Source: Aliidiomarina haloalkalitolerans
Lineage (GTDB): Bacteria > Pseudomonadota > Gammaproteobacteria > Enterobacterales > Alteromonadaceae
Direction of reading: 5' to 3'
Length of the DNA stretch: 64,000 nucleotides
Assembly (NCBI RefSeq): GCF_003987315.1
Contig: NZ_PIPI01000001.1
Coordinates: 682,001-746,000, forward strand
Position numbers and translations under genes: made by a program. Below are positions 10,975 through 23,772 of this stretch, piece by piece; position 1 is the stretch's first letter; each line of letters begins with the position of its first letter. The notes under the pieces are model-generated. The model was not told the origin of the DNA, did not search any database, and saw only the letters and a list, made by a program, of their open reading frames with translations.

Positions 10975-12423
10975 TTACTTTTTCAGCCAGCGCTTGGCAA
11001 ATTCATCCGCACTGACGGGCTTGCCACGCAAGAACCCTTGCATGGTATCGCAGCCCAATTCGACTAGGAGGTTATATTGCTCTTCGTTCTCGACACCTTC
11101 GGCAACGGTTTTTAAGCCAAGCGCTTTGGCCATCGCAATGATTGTTTGCACAAGTGCAAAATAGCTCTGCTCTTTTTCCATTCGTTGTACAAACGACTGG
11201 TCGATTTTTAACGTCGACACGGGAAATTGGCTCAAATAGGACAACGATGAAAAACCTGTACCGAAGTCATCGATGGCAACATGATAGCCATGTTCCCGCA
11301 AACGCTTTAACAACTTCATCGAGCGGTCTAGATTGCGCACCATCACACTTTCAGTCAGCTCAATGCCAATATGTTCAGCAGGAATCGCGTGAGTGCGCTC
11401 AAGGAAGTAATTGACCATGTAGGGCGTATCAAACTGGTGCGCTGAGGTATTGATACTTAATAAACCAGGATACGGTAATCCTTGCTTATTCCATTTTTGT
11501 AACTGCGCAACCGCGGTTTGAATCACCCAGTCCCCTAATGCGCGAATGAGCCCACGCTCTTCCGCCAATGGAATAAACTCAAGCGGACTAATTTGTCCGA
11601 GTTCGCTGTCGTGCCAGCGACAAAGTGCTTCCGCACCCACAAGTTTACCTGATTGCAAATCAAACTGAGGCTGGTAGTACAGCTCCAGTTCATCGTTTTG
11701 AATTGCAAGCTTCAAGCGATCAAGCAAGTTTTGGCGGTGGCGAAGCTGCTTACCCATCGACTGGTCATAAATACGTGAATGGGTTTCAACTTGACGGGCG
11801 AAGTCGAGGGCTATGCTGGCTTGTTGAAACAAGTTAACTGCTTTCCCACCCTCACCATCGAAACTATCAAGGCTATACGCATGCGCCGCACCAATGTGTG
11901 CTTCTAGCGATAGATTCATGTCATGCACGACAAATGGTTCTAAAAACACCATTTTCACGTGTTCGATCGCTAGCGGCAAGGCAGCACCGGAAGTACCAGG
12001 TAAGAGAATGGCATACTCGTCATTCGCAGAGCGTGCCACAAGTTCATAGGGTTCGAGTTGAGCCTGCAGTCGTTTGCCAATTTCCCGCAGTAATGCATCA
12101 CCAACCTCAAGGCCATAAGTATCGTTGACTTCTTTAAATCGACGAACGTTAACCAGGAGTAAGGAAATGTGGTCGTGACTAGCGCTCGATTGCAAAACAT
12201 CGGTGCTCGCAAACCGAAAATATGGCGGCAGTTCAAGAGCGACAGCATCGAAACCATCTCGATGACACCCATACAGCGCGTCCAATGTTTCTACTAACGC
12301 GGCTCGATTCGGTAAATCTGTAATAGGGTCTGCGTAGGCTAAACGCCACAAATACTCTTCCGGCTTCACGGCAGTGCTCGCGAAGGTCGTTGGAATAACC
12401 TCATTGTGGGCCTTTTTGGTCAT
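10975..12423 (-). CDS. EAL phosphodiesterase with degenerate GGDEF domain
   Basis: A 482-residue cytosolic protein without membrane segments. The GGDEF domain spans about residues 28-185, but the signature reads A133-N-D-E-Y instead of GGDEF, so cyclase activity is unlikely. The EAL domain (about 215-475) keeps EALCRW, ELTESVMV, IDDFGTGFSSL, LKIDQSFV and AEGVENEEQ, the metal-binding and catalytic motifs. It should hydrolyse c-di-GMP, perhaps with the degenerate GGDEF binding GTP as an activator, as known for some relatives. No sensory domain is evident in the short N-terminus. It stands alone after a 113-base gap below the phospholipase-D gene. Confidence 0.9.
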   Translation of the reverse strand: MTKKAHNEVIPTTFASTAVKPEEYLWRLAYADPITDLPNRAALVETLDALYGCHRDGFDAVALELPPYFRFASTDVLQSSASHDHISLLLVNVRRFKEVNDTYGLEVGDALLREIGKRLQAQLEPYELVARSANDEYAILLPGTSGAALPLAIEHVKMVFLEPFVVHDMNLSLEAHIGAAHAYSLDSFDGEGGKAVNLFQQASIALDFARQVETHSRIYDQSMGKQLRHRQNLLDRLKLAIQNDELELYYQPQFDLQSGKLVGAEALCRWHDSELGQISPLEFIPLAEERGLIRALGDWVIQTAVAQLQKWNKQGLPYPGLLSINTSAHQFDTPYMVNYFLERTHAIPAEHIGIELTESVMVRNLDRSMKLLKRLREHGYHVAIDDFGTGFSSLSYLSQFPVSTLKIDQSFVQRMEKEQSYFALVQTIIAMAKALGLKTVAEGVENEEQYNLLVELGCDTMQGFLRGKPVSADEFAKRWLKK

Positions 12424-12536: not shown

Positions 12537-14120
12537 TCATAGTAACCAATCGATGGGTAATAATGAGAAAAAACGCATATTGAAACGCTGTAACCACGTG
12601 GTATAGGGGTCTTTTTCGTGGCGAATGATGTGCCCAGGCTTACGCTCGAGCCAATACAAACGGCCTTGTGGTGATAGCTGGAGTTCATAGGCTTGCATTG
12701 GCATACGTTCCGTAAACGTTTGGTCAATCATTTGCGCAAGTTCTGGACTATCGATCACAAAACCGAGTTCAGTATTCAACAATGCCGAACGCGGATCAAA
12801 ATTAAATGAACCGACAAAAACCCGTTGGCCGTCAATTGCAAACGTCTTCGCATGCAGACTTGCCGCACTGCTGCCTAACCGACCAACGGCTGGCTCTTCG
12901 TCCATGAACGGGTCAAGTGGTAAAATTTGTCGCTTTTCAAAAATCCGAATACCGGCACGTAACAGTTTTTTGCGCCATTTTGCATAGCCGGCATGCACGA
13001 TTGCAACGTCAGTTGCTTCTAGCGAATTGGTTAAAATGATGATTTCAACGCCCTGTTCAGCCATTTCGATTAGCGCGTCAACGCCCCAGCGGGTGGGCAC
13101 AAAATAGGGAGAAATCAATTCAAAGTAGTGCTGCGGCTCACCAACAGCCTTTTGCAGCTGATGCATGATCATCTGCTCTTCTTCGGCTTTCCCTAAACCT
13201 TTGAGTGGGTCATCGCTAACCATGGTGGTTTCGGCCCACATAAAGGTTACGTCACCGCGCAGTGCGTCAGCGGCAAACGTGGTCGCCATGACCTCGTCCA
13301 TAAATTCAACTAATGCGTCGTTAGCGGCTAACATTTGTGCGACGGGCTGCGGTTTATAGCGCGAGCGTTTGCGCTGCATGTCAACAAGCTGATGCAACGG
13401 GTAAGCCGAAGGGCTTGACCAAAAACGGTCAAAGTCGTCTGAGACGTCTGTCACTACAGGGCCAATTGCAAGCACATCTAAATCGGTAAAAAGAAACCCT
13501 TCACCAGCACCAAAATAGGAGTCGCCAATATTGCGCCCACCAATAATTGTTACCTGATTGTCTGCAGTGAACGACTTGTTGTGCATGCGCCGATTGGCAC
13601 GATTAAAATCGGTTATAAAACCAAGTACCCGCGAACGTCGCGCGGGAAAAGGATTAAACATGCGAACTTCGATATTTGGGTGCGCATGTAAGTGAGTCAA
13701 AATGCCTTCGAGCGGCCCTGAGTTAAGATCATCGAGCAGCAAACGAACCCGCACACCGCGTTCTGCTGCCTCATGCAACGCCGACAGCAACAGCCGACCG
13801 GTATCGTCGTTTCGCCAGATATAATACTGCACGTCCAGTGTTTTTTCGGCGTTTTCAACTAACAGCAAACGTGCCGCAAATGCTTCTAATGCGTCAGTTA
13901 ACGCAACAATGCCGGACTTATCAGGATGGTCAGCAACTAGTGGCGATAGGGTTTGTCCTAACGCTGTCTGATTAGCTTCTTCAAGGGTTAACGCTGTGGT
14001 TATGGTGCGCTCTTCTAACGCAGGTAAAGTCACCCCAGGTAGGTCGTGTGGCAATAACGAACAGCCAAGCAAAAACGTACTCAACAGAATAGCTGTCGCG
14101 TAATGCAGCGTTTTCTTCAC
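12537..14120 (-). CDS. Phospholipase-D-family lipoprotein (ClsC/YmdC-like)
   Basis: A roughly 527-residue protein. The chosen GTG at 14120 gives a classic lipoprotein signal (VKKTLHYATAILLSTFLLGC, lipobox LLGC). The frame is open back to an ATG at 14174 that overlaps the previous gene by four bases (ATGA), so the true start is uncertain. There are two HKD motifs, HNKSFTADN and HAKTFAIDG. The C-terminus ends LLPIDWLL, like the cardiolipin synthase ClsC/YmdC group. Likely role: phosphatidyl transfer or phospholipid cleavage at the periplasmic face (family inference). It is the last gene of the LOV/ATPase run. Confidence 0.85.
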   Translation of the reverse strand: MKKTLHYATAILLSTFLLGCSLLPHDLPGVTLPALEERTITTALTLEEANQTALGQTLSPLVADHPDKSGIVALTDALEAFAARLLLVENAEKTLDVQYYIWRNDDTGRLLLSALHEAAERGVRVRLLLDDLNSGPLEGILTHLHAHPNIEVRMFNPFPARRSRVLGFITDFNRANRRMHNKSFTADNQVTIIGGRNIGDSYFGAGEGFLFTDLDVLAIGPVVTDVSDDFDRFWSSPSAYPLHQLVDMQRKRSRYKPQPVAQMLAANDALVEFMDEVMATTFAADALRGDVTFMWAETTMVSDDPLKGLGKAEEEQMIMHQLQKAVGEPQHYFELISPYFVPTRWGVDALIEMAEQGVEIIILTNSLEATDVAIVHAGYAKWRKKLLRAGIRIFEKRQILPLDPFMDEEPAVGRLGSSAASLHAKTFAIDGQRVFVGSFNFDPRSALLNTELGFVIDSPELAQMIDQTFTERMPMQAYELQLSPQGRLYWLERKPGHIIRHEKDPYTTWLQRFNMRFFSLLPIDWLL

Positions 14121-14170
14121 GGTAAATACGAGCCTCACTTCGTGGCAGATGCCCCTAGTGTAACAGATAC

Positions 14171-16450
14171 TCATGCAGGCGCATATTGAATCAGCTCCTG
14201 AATAGGGACCGGCCGACCAAGGTAAAAACCCTGATAACCATCGCAGTGTCGCGCCTGTAAAAAGTCAAGTTGCTCTGCTGTTTCGATACCTTCCGCTATC
14301 ACCTTGAGCTTGAGCTCAGCGGCTATGGCCATAATCGCGCGGACAATGCTTTCTTTACCATTTTTCAAGCCAATCTGCTGGGTAAACACCCGATCAATTT
14401 TAACTACATCAATCGGTAGTTCATGTAAATAACGTAAACTCGAGTAACCTGAACCAAAATCATCGAGGGCGATGGTAAATCCGCGTTCATGCAACGCTTG
14501 TAACAGTTCTGGCGCATGCGTGAGCTCATTCACGAGCACGTTTTCAGTAATCTCTAAAGTTATCTGTTCGGGCTGAACTTGATACTTCGCCAGTGTGGTA
14601 TCTAGGTCTTCGATAAATCGGTTGCGGCTCAGTTGTAATGGCGACAAATTGACGCTTACGGTTTGCACGCCCAATTGAATTAAGCGCCCCATATCGCGAC
14701 AGACCTGCTCGAATACCCAACGTCCAATTGAAATAATTTGGCCGGTGTGTTCGGCAATTGGGATAAATTCGGCTGGCGACACTTCCCCTTGCTGAGGATG
14801 CTGCCACCTTAGCAATGCTTCAACCGAACGCATTTCGCCAGCCGCATTGGTCATGGGTTGATAAACTAACCTGAACTCATCGTTATTCAAGGCTTCTTGC
14901 AGCTCATGGCGAACAACAACGTGACGCTCGACCTTGCTATTGATGTCATGGCTAAACCATTCAAAATTGTGGTTACCTCGGCGCTTGGCTTTGTACATCG
15001 CCATGTCAGCCTGTTGGACGAGAACATTAGGCTCTTGAATGTCTTCGTTGCCCTGCGCTATGCCAATACTCGCCGTTAACGTCAGAGCCTTCCCTTCAAT
15101 TTCATAGGGCTCGGCAAGGCTAACCAGCAAGCGCTCGGCAATCGCATTCACCTCATCAGTGTTACCAGCATTGGGTAACACCACAACAAATTCGTCGCCA
15201 CCAAATCGTGCTAGCGTGTCACCATCTCGTAATACGGCAGCTAAACGCTTCGCCACAATTTTCAGTACTTTGTCACCAATCGCATGACCGAGGGTGTCGT
15301 TAATCGGCTTAAATCCGTCGAGGTCAATAAACATCACGGTTAACTGCAAATGATAACGGCGAACAAAGCGCAGAGCCTGTTCTAGGCGATCAGCAAGCAA
15401 AGCACGATTGGGTAACTCAGTTAACGTGTCGTGAGTCGCATGCCAAGCAATTCGTTCTTCTTGCTGCTTACGCTCAGAGATGTCATTTTGAATTCCGATA
15501 AAGTGCGTCACCACACCTTCTGCATCTTTTACTGGCGCGATATAAAGGTCATTCCAAAACGGCGTCCCGTCTTTACGGTAATTGCGAATAACCGTTTGCA
15601 CTTCTTTAAACCGACGCAACCGATTACGAATTTGCTCAATCGCACGGGGATCGGTATCTTCGCCCTGCAGCAACCGACAACTTTTACCCAGCATTTCTTC
15701 TTGGCTCCAGCCAGTAATGCGAGCAAATGCAGGGTTGATATACACCAACGGATTACCTGGCTTGCGGGCATCAGCAATGACGATGCCATTCACACTTGCG
15801 TCAATGCCACGCTCGAGTATCCGCATTTGCGTTTCACTCGCCTGACGCCGCTCGCGCTCTTGTTTTTGCTGTAAAATTAACGCAACCCAATCGAGTGCTT
15901 GGTTAATAACAGCGAGCGCTTGTTGCGTCGGTACTTTAATCTCGGTGAAGTAAACGGCGAATGTTCCAGCCACCGCTCCGTCTTGATTGGTAAACGGATG
16001 CGACCAGCAGGCTTTTAACTTGTAAGCATTTGCTAATGGCAAATAGTCTCTGAATCGGGGGTCTGTGTGCATGTCGGCAACCAACACCGGTTCATTCCGC
16101 GCAGCTGCCGTGCCACAGGCACCAATACCGTCAGCAATGGGCAGTTGTTGTAGTTGCTCAGCAAAACTGGCTGGCAAACGAGCGTGCGCAATACACGCTA
16201 AAGTATCGCCGCCACTTGCGACTTCCATGACGGTGGCATGGGCGCCCTCGTGCTTCGTTTCGATTAACCGACATACAGCAGTGAGTTTATCGTGCCACTG
16301 CGCATCACTCATCGCGCAATGCAATAGCTCAGCTTCAACTTTGCGTACACGTCGAAATTGCTTGAGTTTCTGTGCGAAGACACCAGCACACAGAAGGCTA
16401 ACGAGCGCAAGTAACACGCTCAGAACTACGCCAGTTGTTGTCAGTTCCAT
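14171..16450 (-). CDS. GAF-LOV-GGDEF-EAL protein, candidate blue-light c-di-GMP regulator
   Basis: A 759-residue protein with an N-terminal membrane helix (about 7-27), a GAF domain (about 50-195), a PAS domain of LOV type (about 208-326), a GGDEF domain with an intact signature (G417-G-D-E-F421), and an EAL domain with EALLRW, EITENVLV, LDDFGSGYSSL, VKIDRVF and AEGIETAEQ. The LOV assignment rests on GKSCRLLQ with the flavin-adduct Cys at 258, and on N290, N300 and Q321 at exactly the +32, +42 and +63 spacing of oat phototropin LOV2 (C450, N482, N492, Q513). Both output domains look catalytically competent. It lies seven bases after the P-type ATPase gene and overlaps the phospholipase-D frame. 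Confidence 0.9.
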   Translation of the reverse strand: MELTTTGVVLSVLLALVSLLCAGVFAQKLKQFRRVRKVEAELLHCAMSDAQWHDKLTAVCRLIETKHEGAHATVMEVASGGDTLACIAHARLPASFAEQLQQLPIADGIGACGTAAARNEPVLVADMHTDPRFRDYLPLANAYKLKACWSHPFTNQDGAVAGTFAVYFTEIKVPTQQALAVINQALDWVALILQQKQERERRQASETQMRILERGIDASVNGIVIADARKPGNPLVYINPAFARITGWSQEEMLGKSCRLLQGEDTDPRAIEQIRNRLRRFKEVQTVIRNYRKDGTPFWNDLYIAPVKDAEGVVTHFIGIQNDISERKQQEERIAWHATHDTLTELPNRALLADRLEQALRFVRRYHLQLTVMFIDLDGFKPINDTLGHAIGDKVLKIVAKRLAAVLRDGDTLARFGGDEFVVVLPNAGNTDEVNAIAERLLVSLAEPYEIEGKALTLTASIGIAQGNEDIQEPNVLVQQADMAMYKAKRRGNHNFEWFSHDINSKVERHVVVRHELQEALNNDEFRLVYQPMTNAAGEMRSVEALLRWQHPQQGEVSPAEFIPIAEHTGQIISIGRWVFEQVCRDMGRLIQLGVQTVSVNLSPLQLSRNRFIEDLDTTLAKYQVQPEQITLEITENVLVNELTHAPELLQALHERGFTIALDDFGSGYSSLRYLHELPIDVVKIDRVFTQQIGLKNGKESIVRAIMAIAAELKLKVIAEGIETAEQLDFLQARHCDGYQGFYLGRPVPIQELIQYAPA

Positions 16451-16457
16451 GCCTACC

Positions 16458-19235
16458 CTAATTCGTTATTTTTAATTTTTGGTATACCGACATCCGCTGT
16501 CGTAATGCTTTTTCGAGTTCTAATATCAAGAAAACCGCGATCCCGATCAGAACCGTTGCCAAACCATGTACCAACAGTAAACTTTCAGTCTGGAATAACC
16601 GTTGTAACACAGGTGAATAAGTAAATGCGAGCTGTAACACGAACACCAAACTGACAGCTATTAGCACCGCTTTGGTTCCTTTTACACCTTCCTTGAATAG
16701 TGAGCCTCGGCGCAAATAGCGCACACTGAATAAATACCAGACTTCCATCGCCACTAAGGTATTTACTGCAAATGTTCGCGCGTAACTTTCACTATATCCA
16801 TTCGCTAGCGCCCACTGAAATGCAGCGAAAATACCGATGGTAAATAACACCGAAACCAACACAATACGCCATAACAAGAAGCGCGAAATCAACGCCTCTT
16901 GTTTCTGGCGGGGCGGTCTTCGCATAATATCGCGCTCAGCCGGTTCAAAAGCGAGGGCAAGTGCTAAGGCAATCGAACTGACCATATTCACCCAGAGGAT
17001 TTGTAACGGCAGTATGGGTAAGGTAAGCGCAAACAGCAGCGCAAGTACTATTGCGAGCGACTCGCCACCATTGACTGGCAATAGAAAGCCCATAGCTTTT
17101 TTAAGGTTATCATAAACGTTTCGGCCCTCTTTGACAGCATCGACTATAGTCGCAAAGTTATCATCAATGAGTACCATTTCACTGGCTTCCCGGGCCGCTT
17201 CAGTGCCGCCTTTGCCCATCGCAATACCGACATCAGCGCGCTTGAGCGCTGGTGCATCATTGACACCATCACCTGTCATCGCCACAACTTGACCATGTGC
17301 TTGCAAGGCTGTAACGAGACGTAACTTATGTTCTGGCGTAGTACGAGCGAAGATGTCGACATCGAGTACCTGAGCACGTAAGTCATCGTCGCTCATGGTT
17401 TCAATGTCATGTCCCTCAAGCACACGGCTTGTGTGTTCAAGACCTAAGTCTTGGCCAATTGCCTTTGCGGTTGCGGCGTGGTCACCGGTAATCATTTTCA
17501 CATGAACCCCAGCTTCCTTGCAGATCGCAATGGCAGCTTGTGCTTCCGGGCGAGGCGGGTCAATCAAACCACAAAACCCTAAGAACTCAATGTTGTCGGC
17601 GAGCATGTCGTCGCTCAGTTCACGAACGTCACCATCCACCCACTTAACAGCAAAACCTAGCACGCGCTGACCAGCCGCTGCGATGCGCTCAATTTGTTTT
17701 TGCTGTTGCTCCTTTTCAGTTGGGCTCAGTGTGCACATGGCTAGAACTCGCTCTGGAGCTCCTTTGATGAAAATGACCTGCGCTGATTGAGTCAACGTCG
17801 TTTGCGTGGCGAACCACTGCGAAACATCTACCTGCTCAGCAACCGCGTGCAAAGTCGCCATGTATTTATGACGGGAGTCAAATGGAATGCTATCAAGACG
17901 CGGAAAATCTTCCTGTAAACGCGATAAATTCTGCATTGTCTTATGCGCTAAGACTAACAATGCGGCTTCCATCGGGTCTCCGGTTATTTCTGGACCATCA
18001 CCCTTACTACCATCCTTGCCCTGCAACTCGCCCATATGAGCATCGTTACACAAGGCACCAGCAAGGGCTAAACCCGTCAGAGGCTGTAATTTATCCGCAG
18101 CTTCCGCTTGCTCTGCTCGTTGATCCAGCGCTAACAGCTTGCCTTCGAGGCTATAACCGCTGCCGGTAACTTGCCACCGTCCTTGCTGGGTATACACCTC
18201 ACTGACCATCATTTCATTGCGCGTTAGTGTGCCGGTTTTATCTGAACAAATGGTCGATACTGCGCCGAGTGTTTCCACCGCAGGTAATCGACGAATAACG
18301 CTGTGTCGAGCGGCCATTCGCGTGACACCGATTGCCAATGCGACTGTTAGAATAGTGGGTAAACCTTCCGGGATGGCGGCGACAATTAGGCTAACAACCG
18401 CCATAAATAAATAGGCTGGGTCATTACCACGCATTAAACCGAGCGCAAATACGGCGAGGCCAATAGCGAGAACAACCAAAGTTAAGTATCGAGCAAATTG
18501 GCTCATTTGTTCGAGCAGTGGCGTGGTTAATGTGGTGACCCGATTAAGGAGCTTATTAATTCTACCCAGCTCCGTGTCACCGCCAATCGCGACAACAACC
18601 GCACTTGCTCGCCCTTGCGTGACCAGCGTTCCCGAATATGCCATGCAGCTTCGCTCAGCGAGAACAGCGTCAGCAGAAACCGCGTGAACGTTTTTAGCGA
18701 CGGGCACCGATTCTCCGGTTAGCGCAGCTTCCTGAGTATGTAAGTTACGAGCGTGTAGGAGACGAACATCCGCGGGAACTTTGTCACCCGCTTCAAGCAC
18801 AATTAAGTCACCAGGAACAAGTTCTTTGGCTAAAACTTGTTGCTTTTTGCCATCGCGAATCACGATTGCATGAACAGTGAGCATGTTCTGAATGGCACTT
18901 AGCGCATGTTCTGCTCGGCCCTCCTGAACAAAACCGATTGCTGCATTTGCAACGACAACGGCAAGAATAACCGCCATATCGAGCCATTCTGTCAAAACCC
19001 CTGCCAGTACCGCTGCCACCAACAAAACATAGATGAGTAAATTGTTAAACTGGCGTAATAATCGCTTCCAAGCAGGCGCCACCAAGCGCACAGCAAGTTC
19101 ATTGGCGCCATACTGCTGTTGTCGTTCGCGTACCTGAGTTGTTGTCAGCCCCTGCTCGCTATCACTACCTAAGTCGTTAACAACTGCTGCACCAGTTTGC
19201 GTAAATGGAGTGGATGGTGATGGTTCTTTGCTCAC
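16458..19235 (-). CDS. P-type cation ATPase (P2 class)
   Basis: A 925-residue integral-membrane pump. It has an N-terminal cation-ATPase domain, actuator loop T173-G-E-S176, membrane motif PEGLP (289-293), phosphorylation site D332 in SDKTGTLT, nucleotide-binding domain, hinge TGDGVNDAPALKRADVGIAMG and six C-terminal helices. The start is placed at GTG 19235 because GGAGGA lies seven bases before it; the upstream frame has only TTG or an unsupported ATG. In helix 6 the sequence ILWVNMVSSIALA keeps the Asn of Ca2+-ATPases but has Ser where the ion-binding Asp normally sits, so the transported ion cannot be named. It is in operon with the CoA-transferase upstream and the LOV protein downstream. 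Confidence 0.9.
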   Translation of the reverse strand: MSKEPSPSTPFTQTGAAVVNDLGSDSEQGLTTTQVRERQQQYGANELAVRLVAPAWKRLLRQFNNLLIYVLLVAAVLAGVLTEWLDMAVILAVVVANAAIGFVQEGRAEHALSAIQNMLTVHAIVIRDGKKQQVLAKELVPGDLIVLEAGDKVPADVRLLHARNLHTQEAALTGESVPVAKNVHAVSADAVLAERSCMAYSGTLVTQGRASAVVVAIGGDTELGRINKLLNRVTTLTTPLLEQMSQFARYLTLVVLAIGLAVFALGLMRGNDPAYLFMAVVSLIVAAIPEGLPTILTVALAIGVTRMAARHSVIRRLPAVETLGAVSTICSDKTGTLTRNEMMVSEVYTQQGRWQVTGSGYSLEGKLLALDQRAEQAEAADKLQPLTGLALAGALCNDAHMGELQGKDGSKGDGPEITGDPMEAALLVLAHKTMQNLSRLQEDFPRLDSIPFDSRHKYMATLHAVAEQVDVSQWFATQTTLTQSAQVIFIKGAPERVLAMCTLSPTEKEQQQKQIERIAAAGQRVLGFAVKWVDGDVRELSDDMLADNIEFLGFCGLIDPPRPEAQAAIAICKEAGVHVKMITGDHAATAKAIGQDLGLEHTSRVLEGHDIETMSDDDLRAQVLDVDIFARTTPEHKLRLVTALQAHGQVVAMTGDGVNDAPALKRADVGIAMGKGGTEAAREASEMVLIDDNFATIVDAVKEGRNVYDNLKKAMGFLLPVNGGESLAIVLALLFALTLPILPLQILWVNMVSSIALALALAFEPAERDIMRRPPRQKQEALISRFLLWRIVLVSVLFTIGIFAAFQWALANGYSESYARTFAVNTLVAMEVWYLFSVRYLRRGSLFKEGVKGTKAVLIAVSLVFVLQLAFTYSPVLQRLFQTESLLLVHGLATVLIGIAVFLILELEKALRQRMSVYQKLKITN

Positions 19236-19264
19236 AGGGGAGTCCTCCATAAGTTTTAAGCGAG

Positions 19265-20542
19265 CTAAATGCGCAAGCCCCAAATATCTCGAGCTTCGCG
19301 AGCAAGTTCCTCTTGAAACTGCGGTGCGGCAACTCGCATGAGCTCTGCCGCGCGCTCACTGAGGCTTTTCGCACGTAAATTAGCCACACCATATTCGGTC
19401 ACAATGTAGTGCACATGCGCTCGAGTGGTCACAACGCCTGCGCCTGGGCTGAGCACTGAACTAATGCGCGATACTTTCCCGCCACACGCCGTGGCTGGTA
19501 ACGCAATGACAGAACGTCCGCCTTCGGACAAACTCGCGCCGCGAACAAAGTCCATTTGCCCCCCGACCCCTGAATAAATCGAGGTGCCTAAAGAATCTGC
19601 GCAGACTTGGCCACTAAGGTCGACTTGCAAGGCGCTATTAATTGCCATGACTTGTTTATTTTGACGAATAACCGATGTGTCATTGGTGTATTCCACATCG
19701 AGAAACGCCACTTCCGGATTATCATCAATAAAGTCGTAGAGTGCCTGGCTGCCCATGGCAAAGGTAGTCACGATGCGACCACGATGCTTGCGTTTGCGAG
19801 AGTTATTAATCACCCCGCTTTTGACTAACGGCAACACGCCATCGGAAAACATTTCCGTATGAATACCAAGATCACGCCGATCACCTAGGCAAGCCAAGGT
19901 TGCGTCAGGGATTGCACCAATACCCATTTGCAAGCAATCACCATCGCCAATCAAGCTCGCGACATGACGACCGATTTGCATCGTTACTTCATCTTGTTCT
20001 GCGGGTGTATGCAACGGCAATGGTGCCGCATGTTCAAAGTAACGGGTAAAACGGTCGACATGGATAAAAGAATCGCCGTGGGTGCGCGGCATATTCGGGT
20101 TAACCCAGGCGATAACTTTCTTGGCAACCTGCAAGGCCGCCCGCGTCGCTTCAACCGAAATGCCGAGGCTACAATAACCATGAGCATCCGGAGGCGATAC
20201 CTGCACAAGCACCGCGTCAACCGGTTGATCTCCCGAGCGAAATAACTTCGGAATTTCAGACAGGAAGATCGGTACATAATCAGCCAGACCATCGCGCACA
20301 GCCGAACGTGTTGCGGCTCCAACAAAGAACGCGCGCTGACGTAAATGACCTTGTAATTCAGGGCGACACAGCGAGCCGCTTTTTTCCGTATGCAGCTGTA
20401 ACAAGGTCAAATTACGCCGCATGAGCGCCACTTCGGCTAAGGCGTCAAGCAATACATAAGGTGTCGCTGCCATCGACTGACACCAAATAACTTCGTCGTT
20501 TCCAATCACGGAAACTGCTTCTGCAGCAGACTGCACTTGCAT
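19265..20542 (-). CDS. Acetyl-CoA hydrolase / CoA-transferase family protein
   Basis: A 425-residue enzyme of the acetyl-CoA hydrolase/4-hydroxybutyrate CoA-transferase family, which moves CoA between acyl groups through a glutamyl-CoA intermediate. The catalytic region reads GIHTEMFSDG, and the C-terminal glycine-rich signatures SGVGGQMDFVRGA and VTEYGVANLRAKS are present. Length is normal. It starts ten bases after the beta-CASP hydrolase stop and is followed by the ATPase after about 30 bases. Whether acetate, butyrate or a hydroxyacid is the acceptor cannot be told. Confidence 0.9.
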   Translation of the reverse strand: MQVQSAAEAVSVIGNDEVIWCQSMAATPYVLLDALAEVALMRRNLTLLQLHTEKSGSLCRPELQGHLRQRAFFVGAATRSAVRDGLADYVPIFLSEIPKLFRSGDQPVDAVLVQVSPPDAHGYCSLGISVEATRAALQVAKKVIAWVNPNMPRTHGDSFIHVDRFTRYFEHAAPLPLHTPAEQDEVTMQIGRHVASLIGDGDCLQMGIGAIPDATLACLGDRRDLGIHTEMFSDGVLPLVKSGVINNSRKRKHRGRIVTTFAMGSQALYDFIDDNPEVAFLDVEYTNDTSVIRQNKQVMAINSALQVDLSGQVCADSLGTSIYSGVGGQMDFVRGASLSEGGRSVIALPATACGGKVSRISSVLSPGAGVVTTRAHVHYIVTEYGVANLRAKSLSERAAELMRVAAPQFQEELAREARDIWGLRI

Positions 20543-21978: not shown

Positions 21979-23772
21979 TCACTCACTTACTTTGAGTTCA
22001 CTTAATTTTTTTAACCAATCCAGTGCGGGCTCTGGACGGTGAAAATAAAAACCCTGAAACTGCTGGCATCCGAGCTCCCGCAAATATTCAAACTGTTCAA
22101 TAGTTTCAATTCCTTCGGCAACCCGTTCTAAACTTAAATTTGCACCCATCGTCACGATCGTATCGAGCAAGGCACGCTCTCGCTCAGATTGCATACCCGC
22201 GTGAACGAAGGCCCGGTCGATTTTCACTTCACCGACAGGCATCCATTGCAAGCGCCGCAAATTTGAATAGCCCGTGCCAAAGTCATCAATTGAAAAAGTA
22301 ACACCATGTGCCTTCAGACGTTCCATCGTTTGTTGCACCTGATCGCTATCATCGACCAATAGACTCTCTGTAATTTCCAGTTTCAGCCCCTCTAAAGGCG
22401 CATTAAGACGCTGAAATGTGCGTATCACGTTTTCTGCAAAATGTTCGCTACGAAACTGCCGTGGGCTAACATTCACAGCGATTTCAAAATTTGGAAACAG
22501 TGCTCGAGCACGCGGAAGAATTCGCGCAACAGACTCGAGCATGAACTGACCTATCGGCACGATGAGACCTAAACGCTCCGCCAACGGGATAAATTTGTTT
22601 GGTGGAATCCATTCCTCATAATGCCGCCACCGTACCAACGCCTCGGCCGCAACCCAACGTTGATTAGCATCAACCTTGCTTTGCAACCAGCATTCCAGGT
22701 GACCTTTCTCAATCGCATGACGCAGCTGCTCTTCGCGACGAAAATCATCGACAACTTGCGCCGTCATCACACGTTTATACTCAGAATATTGATCGCGCCC
22801 ATTGGCTTTAGCTTCATGGACTGCAGTTTCAGCATTCGCAATAACTTGTGACGCTTCGTTGCCGCGATCAGCCCGCGCCAAACCGATACTGCCGGTGAAA
22901 TAATAGCTGCGCCCTTGCACAATCACTTCCTGTCGCAGCAACGCCAACAATGCTTTCGACCGATCATGCCGAAACTCACCTGCACTGTTACCACTGACAG
23001 GAACCGCTAACCAAAACCGGTCTTCGATGTCCTTTCCCACAAAGCCACCAAAACTCGCGACAAAATGCTCTAAACGCCGAGCGATCACACGCAAAATCTG
23101 ATTACTTTCGTCTGGACCAGCGACAATATTCACGCGGTTAAAAAAGTCCATGTTGACGGCCACCACTTTAATACTCTGCTCCTTTAGGATGTGAGCAACG
23201 AGTTTCAAAAAGTGGGTTCGATTGGGCAAACCCGTGTTGCGATCAAACAGAGACAAAGTCTCAATCGTTTCGGCTGCTTTGCGTTCTTCACTAATGTCCC
23301 GCAGCGTTGCGATATAACGGTGTTCAGCACCCCACGCGACCTTGCTCAGATGAATCGTGATTGGGAATCTGCTGCCATTTTTTCGTTCTGCCTCTAATTC
23401 CCGAGTTTTGCCGATAACGTAGTTTTTTCCTTCTGGATAATCGAGCGCACGCTGCATTAACTGTTCGTGCTGCCCAGCCATCGCTGCAGGCATTAAAATG
23501 CCGACATTACACCCAACCAGCTCTTGATACTCATAACCAAACATTGCAGTGACAGCCTGGTTCACTTCAATGATCGTACCTCGCAAGTCGGTGACTAAAA
23601 CCGCATCGATTAAGCTGTTATATAAGGTATTCAACCATTCCTTGTTCGTCATGGCCGAACTTGCTTGGCTTTCTGTTAGCGCCGCTTCCGTGGCTGAGCT
23701 CGATGAGCTCGTTGTTTCACTCTTTGAATGCGCGCGTTCGTCACGAGCACTCGACACGGATTTATTGGCCAT
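21979..23772 (-). CDS. PAS-EAL phosphodiesterase with degenerate GGDEF
   Basis: A 597-residue soluble protein. The first 40 residues are Ser/Thr-rich and low-complexity, then comes a PAS domain (about 45-165) ending YIATLRDISEERK. A GGDEF-like domain follows whose signature position reads GKDIEDRFWL, so it is not a cyclase. The EAL domain keeps EALVRW, EITESLLV, IDDFGTGYSNL, VKIDRAFV and AEGIETIEQ and should be an active c-di-GMP phosphodiesterase. The PAS lacks the LOV cysteine motif, so its ligand is unknown. First gene of the leftward run; 64 bases separate it from the beta-CASP gene. Confidence 0.9.
   Translation of the reverse strand: MANKSVSSARDERAHSKSETTSSSSSATEAALTESQASSAMTNKEWLNTLYNSLIDAVLVTDLRGTIIEVNQAVTAMFGYEYQELVGCNVGILMPAAMAGQHEQLMQRALDYPEGKNYVIGKTRELEAERKNGSRFPITIHLSKVAWGAEHRYIATLRDISEERKAAETIETLSLFDRNTGLPNRTHFLKLVAHILKEQSIKVVAVNMDFFNRVNIVAGPDESNQILRVIARRLEHFVASFGGFVGKDIEDRFWLAVPVSGNSAGEFRHDRSKALLALLRQEVIVQGRSYYFTGSIGLARADRGNEASQVIANAETAVHEAKANGRDQYSEYKRVMTAQVVDDFRREEQLRHAIEKGHLECWLQSKVDANQRWVAAEALVRWRHYEEWIPPNKFIPLAERLGLIVPIGQFMLESVARILPRARALFPNFEIAVNVSPRQFRSEHFAENVIRTFQRLNAPLEGLKLEITESLLVDDSDQVQQTMERLKAHGVTFSIDDFGTGYSNLRRLQWMPVGEVKIDRAFVHAGMQSERERALLDTIVTMGANLSLERVAEGIETIEQFEYLRELGCQQFQGFYFHRPEPALDWLKKLSELKVSE

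Follow-up and report, generated by a model that had tools for sequence, protein, structure and literature searches.

A predicted membrane-anchored LOV-GGDEF-EAL photoreceptor with a natural serine beside the adduct cysteine in Aliidiomarina haloalkalitolerans

Main finding

The window analysed here is a stretch of 64,000 nucleotides of Aliidiomarina haloalkalitolerans (contig NZ_PIPI01000001.1, positions 682,001 to 746,000), and the gene under study, on its minus strand, encodes a protein in which a hydrophobic N-terminus is followed by GAF, LOV, GGDEF and EAL domains. With good confidence the protein is read as a blue-light photoreceptor of the LOV-GGDEF-EAL kind with a membrane anchor, through which blue light would probably enter the cyclic di-GMP (c-di-GMP) network of this marine-type genus. 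The class itself is already known: GGDEF or GGDEF plus EAL is carried by about 18% of bacterial LOV proteins (PMC4844311). The gene reads as a well-conserved, ordinary member; its unusual part is the natural Ser257 beside the predicted adduct cysteine, together with the series of natural variants around it. In the proposed mechanism the LOV domain would bind flavin, blue light would form an adduct between Cys258 and the flavin, Gln321 would signal this to the beta-sheet and to the 21-residue linker, through which net c-di-GMP turnover by the dimer would be altered; the GAF domain and the transmembrane (TM) helix would probably govern the protein's location and its dimer state, with a second signal perhaps entering there.

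LOV identity of the PAS domain

The original prediction, made from the sequence alone, had placed Cys258 in the motif GKSCRLLQ with N290, N300 and Q321 downstream. A script check reproduced the offsets of Asn290, Asn300 and Gln321 from the cysteine (+32, +42 and +63), which is the spacing of C450, N482, N492 and Q513 in LOV2 of oat phototropin (AsLOV2; residue names from PMC9098866). The accompanying statement that Ser257 is the sole departure from the core motif had to be corrected, as Leu260 also stands for the Phe of GxNCRFLQ. The LOV domain alone (residues 205-335) was scored against NCBIfam and gave 146.3 bits with YtvA_fam and 127.6 bits with BluLightHisKinLov versus 70.2 bits with the generic sensory_box model, so that LOV profiles outscore generic PAS as had been predicted; the order was reversed in both control domains, namely the PAS of the neighbouring protein at 21979-23772 (generic model 83.4 bits, LOV models 23.9 and 18.2 bits) and the PAS of a Halomonas relative (L103; generic model 82.2 bits, zero LOV models at E<=0.01). 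These scores lie below the whole-protein cut-offs of the LOV models (250 and 450), which cover other architectures. PAS_9, which had been proposed as a LOV profile, proved to be generic, since it also matches the PAS of the neighbour at 21979-23772 (51.7 bits).

In the Protein Data Bank (PDB) 155 distinct sequences were matched by the domain at E<=1e-6 (best 4e-36), a likeness that is not due to chance. The 60 matches displayed comprise aureochromes, phototropins, YtvA, blue-light histidine kinases and similar proteins; displayed entries named only as histidine kinase or sensory box protein are presumed to be LOV entries. The LOV fold was judged from sequence only, as GGDEF-EAL chains fill the structure matches that the full model gave across the PDB. 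Arg259 and Arg275 are taken by us to be the two arginines at the usual flavin phosphate-contact positions. By eye, the domain also fits the looser LOV pattern [NS]-x2-[FPGHSA]-x4-[GEQR]-x(9,11)-C (PMC4844311) with N239, F242, G247 and C258, 10 residues separating the Gly and the Cys. LOV identity is thus strongly supported by profile and residue evidence, and with it, by extension, flavin binding and blue-light adduct chemistry; from these we infer light control of c-di-GMP.

A generic PAS domain with a chance cysteine, binding heme or another ligand as in DosP, would share this architecture, and the PAS-GGDEF-EAL structures DosP and PA0861 do align with the full model across PAS, GGDEF and EAL among the 50 structures listed (9cmf, Z 30.6 over 561 residues; 5xge, Z 30.1 over 533). 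The root mean square deviations of 19.1 and 27.4 (9cmf and 5xge) indicate that the modelled domain folds agree and their arrangement does not, and the GGDEF-EAL structures of MorA and PA0575 score higher (Z 34.2 and 33.6) without a PAS part. DosP is an oxygen sensor. The domain-only scores, the PDB matches and the four photochemical residues at exact spacing make this explanation very improbable.

Conservation and family

Relatives were taken from the best 80 of 588 confirmed stretches, among which the nearest named ones are an Aliidiomarina metagenome-assembled genome (82%) and A. sanyensis and A. indica (both 53%), followed by rank by Halomonas, Marinobacter, Pseudomonas and Kangiella. GAF-LOV-GGDEF-EAL and GAF-PAS-LOV-GGDEF-EAL proteins of Halomonas, Marinobacter, Kangiella and Pseudidiomarina have the same domain set and a related GAF (the 21 rows of alignment A1 from outside Aliidiomarina are 39-45% identical to its first row); they differ in that many carry either an additional PAS or a long stretch at the N-terminus, Asn is the residue at position 257 in most, and some are without the Cys or the Gln.

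A quick tree was calculated with support from the Shimodaira-Hasegawa-like approximate likelihood ratio test (SH-aLRT) only, and long-branch warnings were given. The protein falls into a six-row Aliidiomarina clade (SH-aLRT 100), and the Cys, both Asn and the Gln are kept in all six Aliidiomarina orthologue rows, own included, while the surrounding motif drifts (GKSCRLLQ, GQSCRVLQ, GRNCKVLQ, GKTCKVLQ, GRNCSMLQ and GKSCAILQ). On the LOV side of the tree (88 rows) the Cys is missing in 11 rows, by at least seven changes, and in 13 further rows the Cys is kept and the Gln lost, with at least nine changes of the Gln state. Three of the 11 Cys-less rows (L103, L108 and L116, all Halomonas) resemble a different PAS: here the LOV domain has apparently been replaced by a non-LOV PAS, the GAF, GGDEF and EAL domains still being related, and a domain swap is possible.

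Nonsynonymous divergence (dN) alone was compared because synonymous divergence (dS) was undefined in 14 of 16 comparisons. Values for LOV residues 253-326, GGDEF and EAL were 0.064, 0.097 and 0.177 against L041 (in which the GAF is absent and the open reading frame (ORF) is truncated at the contig end), 0.246, 0.235 and 0.358 against L126, and 0.280, 0.274 and 0.358 against L127; between L126 and L127 they were 0.147, 0.117 and 0.174, with 0.286 for PAS and 0.374 for GAF. The rate for LOV residues 253-326 is therefore similar to that of GGDEF and lower than that of EAL. The simplest reading of these rates and residues would be selection on the photochemical residues in the Aliidiomarina clade, amid repeated losses in the family. 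It could instead be that the domain binds flavin and mainly senses redox state or flavin availability, the relaxed motif around the Cys in this clade reflecting weaker selection on photochemistry; Cys-less rows do persist on the LOV side, but the four residues retained throughout the clade and a LOV domain that evolves more slowly than EAL and GAF render such a sensor improbable.

Serine 257 and the photocycle

In AsLOV2 the substitution N449S shortens the adduct lifetime to 0.99 s from 37-81 s in the wild type (PMC10751770). It is the fastest single variant in that data set and was the fastest variant known beforehand, the multiple mutants of the study being faster still. By analogy, Ser257 probably shortens the adduct lifetime relative to an Asn version of the same domain. 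A more tentative and somewhat doubtful proposal is that this protein and the other Ser257 proteins of Aliidiomarina and Pseudidiomarina cycle fast by nature, with adduct lifetimes of seconds like the engineered AsLOV2 N449S. If it were true, the c-di-GMP output would track momentary light intensity and not accumulated dose, and strict filters of the GxNCRFLQ type would overlook many such sensors.

The Cys is present in 78 rows of a 102-row table, in which position 257 is Asn in 73 rows and Ser in 14; among the 77 Cys rows on the tree it is Asn in 66, Ser in 10 and Thr in 1, with a minimum of six changes of state. The natural Thr was found in the G006 orthologue (L127); the G003 orthologue has Asn. 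The strict filter Gx(N/D)C(R/H)(F/I)L(Q/A) (PMC10396304) passes 52 of the 78 Cys rows and misses 26, this protein (GKSCRLLQ) included; 19 of the 64 rows that have the Cys, both Asn and the Gln are missed. A census of the motif covered 398 Pseudomonadota genomes; the genus was represented by the present genome alone, and the patterns demanded Arg, Gln and Gly so that variants are under-counted. The Asn form was found at 71 sites in 43 genomes (counted by hand, as sites not individually confirmed as LOV), and the Ser form with AGY codons at 1 site, the gene described here. The single site of the Ser form with TCN codons lies in a frame with stops and was dismissed as chance. A link between Ser or Thr at position 257 and loss of Arg259 was also considered, Arg being absent from 7 of 11 Ser/Thr rows versus 5 of the 66 with Asn, counted over the Cys rows on the tree, but independent pairs did not support it (median p 0.5, 5 supported pairs) and it is not claimed.

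Across the wider family the photochemical residues vary naturally (Asn to Ser or Thr; Cys to Ala, Ser, Gly or Met; Gln to Leu, Ile, Met or Ser), and as this mutant series sits on related GGDEF-EAL machinery, LOV kinetics and Cys-free and Gln-free signalling become comparable in one framework. In L070 (Halomonas, Cys to Ala), L071, L047, L097 and L021 the adduct Cys is replaced by Ala, Ser, Gly or Met and the EAL motif is present, which makes these proteins candidates for cysteine-free LOV signalling. A further LOV-GGDEF-EAL protein (L130:7537-9630, G010) has Ser for the Gln and, by eye, a C-terminal response-regulator receiver domain.

Direction of the output

Both output domains had been predicted to be intact, which was borne out by the motifs GGDEF (residues 417-421), RDGD (408-411) and EAL (544-546). 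In the EAL domain E544, N601, E633, E636, D663, D664, K684, E720, E723 and Q740 were invariant in 25 rows; these ten are presumably the usual metal-binding and catalytic residues. Within the proposed reading, a rise in the phosphodiesterase activity of the EAL domain is the option narrowly preferred, and it is held loosely; an effect on GGDEF activity comes second and is distinctly less likely, and a protein without a functional light response is unlikely. The preference draws on SL2 of Synechococcus elongatus, which shares the order LOV-GGDEF-EAL and whose EAL domain hydrolyses c-di-GMP in blue light (PMC8846402); SL2 was compared by description only, and the available text describes a canonical LOV and leaves a GAF or TM helix unmentioned. 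It also draws on LOV-GGDEF pieces of LOV-GGDEF-EAL proteins, in which synthesis was not regulated by light (PMC10396304), the authors considering light control through the EAL domain plausible.

Several points weigh against a light-sensing protein with this output. Orthologues, assigned by score and identity, occur patchily, in 6 of 17 Aliidiomarina genomes, own included. Gly222 occupies the position of AsLOV2 N414 by our own mapping through an ungapped aureochrome alignment, the AsLOV2 numbering behind it being assumed. N414V slows AsLOV2 strongly (PMC10751770), so that AsLOV2 kinetics are not directly transferable and no lifetime is predictable from a single residue. Ser257 could even weaken flavin binding, given that flavin was not bound by AsLOV2 N449A, N449I, N449K and N449T (PMC10751770). 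Counted from the DIS Asp through to the DTL Leu, the linker has 21 residues in 102 of 102 rows, 24 Cys-less rows included, which marks it as general PAS-GGDEF construction and not as light-specific. One of the two truncated constructs of PMC10396304 was without some GGDEF residues and truncation may explain the other, and in a Mesorhizobium LOV-GGDEF fragment synthesis was repressed by light (PMC9098866), which favours an output through GGDEF.

This last result bears on the alternative that light chiefly controls the diguanylate cyclase and the EAL is secondary, a sub-case that competes only with the EAL part of the proposal and is given a minority weight. The GGDEF motif and the I-site are intact, and the linker has the 21 residues of the short-linker LadC class (AoLadC, DpLadC), in which LOV is followed by GGDEF and blue light activates about 15-fold (PMC10396304). 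Unlike LadC, the protein has an EAL after the GGDEF, a GAF and TM helix before the LOV, and a motif that fails the strict filter; the intact EAL, a linker length identical in non-LOV relatives and the truncated pieces without light-regulated synthesis all speak against this sub-case, and light-raised EAL activity is kept as the preferred output.

Gene and domain architecture

Coordinates are collected in Table 1. Pfam matches were PAS_9 at residues 222-326 (76.9 bits), GGDEF at 338-493 (170.6 bits), EAL at 515-747 (255.7 bits), GAF at 94-191 and GAF_2 at 58-193. A hydrophobic N-terminal helix, absent from the original prediction, was also seen. The hydropathy maximum in a 19-residue window starts at residue 8 (mean 2.76), and the hydrophobic N-terminus suggests a membrane anchor. 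An AlphaFold2 (AF2) model built on a 25-row alignment had a mean predicted local distance difference test (pLDDT) score of 86.9 and a predicted template modelling (pTM) score of 0.42, which indicates that single domains would be well modelled and their mutual arrangement not. The best NCBIfam model for the whole protein was the DibA phosphodiesterase NF045675 (484.3 bits, residues 195-753), well below the curated equivalog cut-off of 980; L103, the relative with a non-LOV PAS, scores alike (477.0). A near-identity plasmid search gave zero matches.

Table 1. Features of the LOV gene and its neighbours, in window positions.
Feature	Position	Strand	Basis
Whole gene, TM-GAF-LOV-GGDEF-EAL protein, 759 residues, ATG start	14171..16450	-	ORF and Pfam
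N-terminal hydrophobic segment, residues ~6-26, predicted membrane anchor	16373..16435	-	Hydropathy; helix 2-47 in model
GAF domain, residues 58-193, conserved Cys112, Cys148 and Trp149	15872..16279	-	Pfam, conservation, fold
Continuous helix from GAF to LOV, residues 176-217	15800..15925	-	AF2 model
LOV (PAS_9) domain, residues 213-326	15473..15814	-	Pfam, PDB matches, domain-only model scores
Cys258, predicted flavin C4a adduct residue	15677..15679	-	Sequence and spacing
Ser257, replaces usual Asn (AsLOV2 N449)	15680..15682	-	Sequence and spacing
Asn290 (AsLOV2 N482)	15581..15583	-	Spacing
Asn300 (AsLOV2 N492)	15551..15553	-	Spacing
Gln321 (AsLOV2 Q513)	15488..15490	-	Spacing
LOV-GGDEF linker, residues 323-343 (DIS ... 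DTL), 21 residues	15422..15484	-	Helix 325-339 in model; length definition of PMC10396304
GGDEF domain, residues 338-493, GGDEF and RxxD I-site intact	14972..15439	-	Pfam, motif
EAL domain, residues 515-747, catalytic residues intact	14210..14908	-	Pfam, alignment
PLD-like gene, downstream; adjoins LOV gene in 4 of 6 orthologue loci, own included	12537..14174	-	Pfam, locus comparison
Cation-transporting P-type ATPase gene, upstream, 7 bases from LOV start	16458..19283	-	ORF, locus comparison
GGDEF-EAL protein, conserved cluster member	10975..12423	-	Pfam, locus comparison
PAS-GGDEF-EAL protein (non-LOV PAS), conserved in G003 and G006 clusters	21979..23772	-	Pfam, locus comparison, model scores

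GAF domain

The GAF domain was modelled with a good GAF fold (pLDDT 93.2). In alignment A2, for which 34 rows were hand-chosen from 66 (L105, L109 and L113 being left out), Cys112 and Trp149 were present in 34 of 34 rows and Cys148 in 31. In the fuller 66-row set Cys112 was found in 62 rows, was uncovered in 1 and was replaced by Phe in the 3 rows left out of A2, so that it is conserved and not invariant. A role as second sensor of the LOV protein is possible.

The closest folds were PtsP-type GAF domains (Z 20.4 and 20.3), followed by four entries of free methionine-(R)-sulfoxide reductase (fRMsr; Z 18.8 to 18.2). An fRMsr-like redox enzyme, prompted by these fold matches and by the GACG motif, was set aside, finding no support at the catalytic Cys, which we take to be residue 100 of Escherichia coli MsrC (IAC segment): hhalign gave a weak match to E. 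coli MsrC over the GACG/GVCG segment only (33 columns, probability 45%), residues 128-147 contain zero Cys, and Cys148 lies off the catalytic place by eye. For a bilin-binding GAF as in phytochromes and cyanobacteriochromes, phytochrome GAF domains were also among the fold matches (Z ~16), as fold likeness only, and residues 128-147 likewise offer zero Cys for bilin attachment. For a cyclic-nucleotide sensor the PDB profile matches were weak (the top one, 6.5e-6, to a domain without annotation; the cAMP GAF of Lcd1, 5.3e-4) and led to no assignment.

Genomic neighbourhood

The LOV gene stands in a run of minus-strand genes in the order PAS-GGDEF-EAL, beta-CASP metallo-hydrolase, acetyl-CoA hydrolase/transferase-like, cation P-type ATPase, LOV gene, PLD-like, GGDEF-EAL, TetR and AidB-like acyl-CoA dehydrogenase. 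In A. sanyensis and A. indica the order beta-CASP, ATPase, LOV, PLD, GGDEF-EAL is kept, the acetyl-CoA gene being missing between the first two, and the G003 and G006 stretches retain the beta-CASP gene, the LOV gene and both GGDEF-EAL genes but have no PLD or ATPase gene. The beta-CASP gene was found in 17 of 17 Aliidiomarina genomes. Three c-di-GMP proteins (10975-12423, 14171-16450 and 21979-23772) lie within 13 kb on one strand, and the three likewise cluster in G003 and G006.

Other light-related genes of the genome

The LOV protein query gave 40 matches in its own genome at E<=0.001, and a degenerate nucleotide pattern built on the Cys motif gave 3 matches (reversed control 1), namely this gene, a second LOV protein and C1:199701 (L009), of which the last may be chance, as the reversed control also gives one. 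Besides the present gene the genome encodes another LOV-EAL protein and one of the PHY-GGDEF type. The second LOV protein (L128:8225-10768; C23:64224-66767) has the order GAF-PAS-LOV-GGDEF-EAL, a canonical GKNCRFLQ and a degenerate GGDEF (AADEF), with which it is probably a phosphodiesterase only. A search for BLUF in this genome found none, and two DNA_photolyase matches mark photolyase/cryptochrome-type proteins (C1:565431, L122; C1:622363, L123). A PHY domain (C12:201966-203009, L121) lies in an open frame of 689 residues, which has a GGDEF match as well and is likely to encode a red-light diguanylate cyclase of the PadC kind (as named in PMC8846402).

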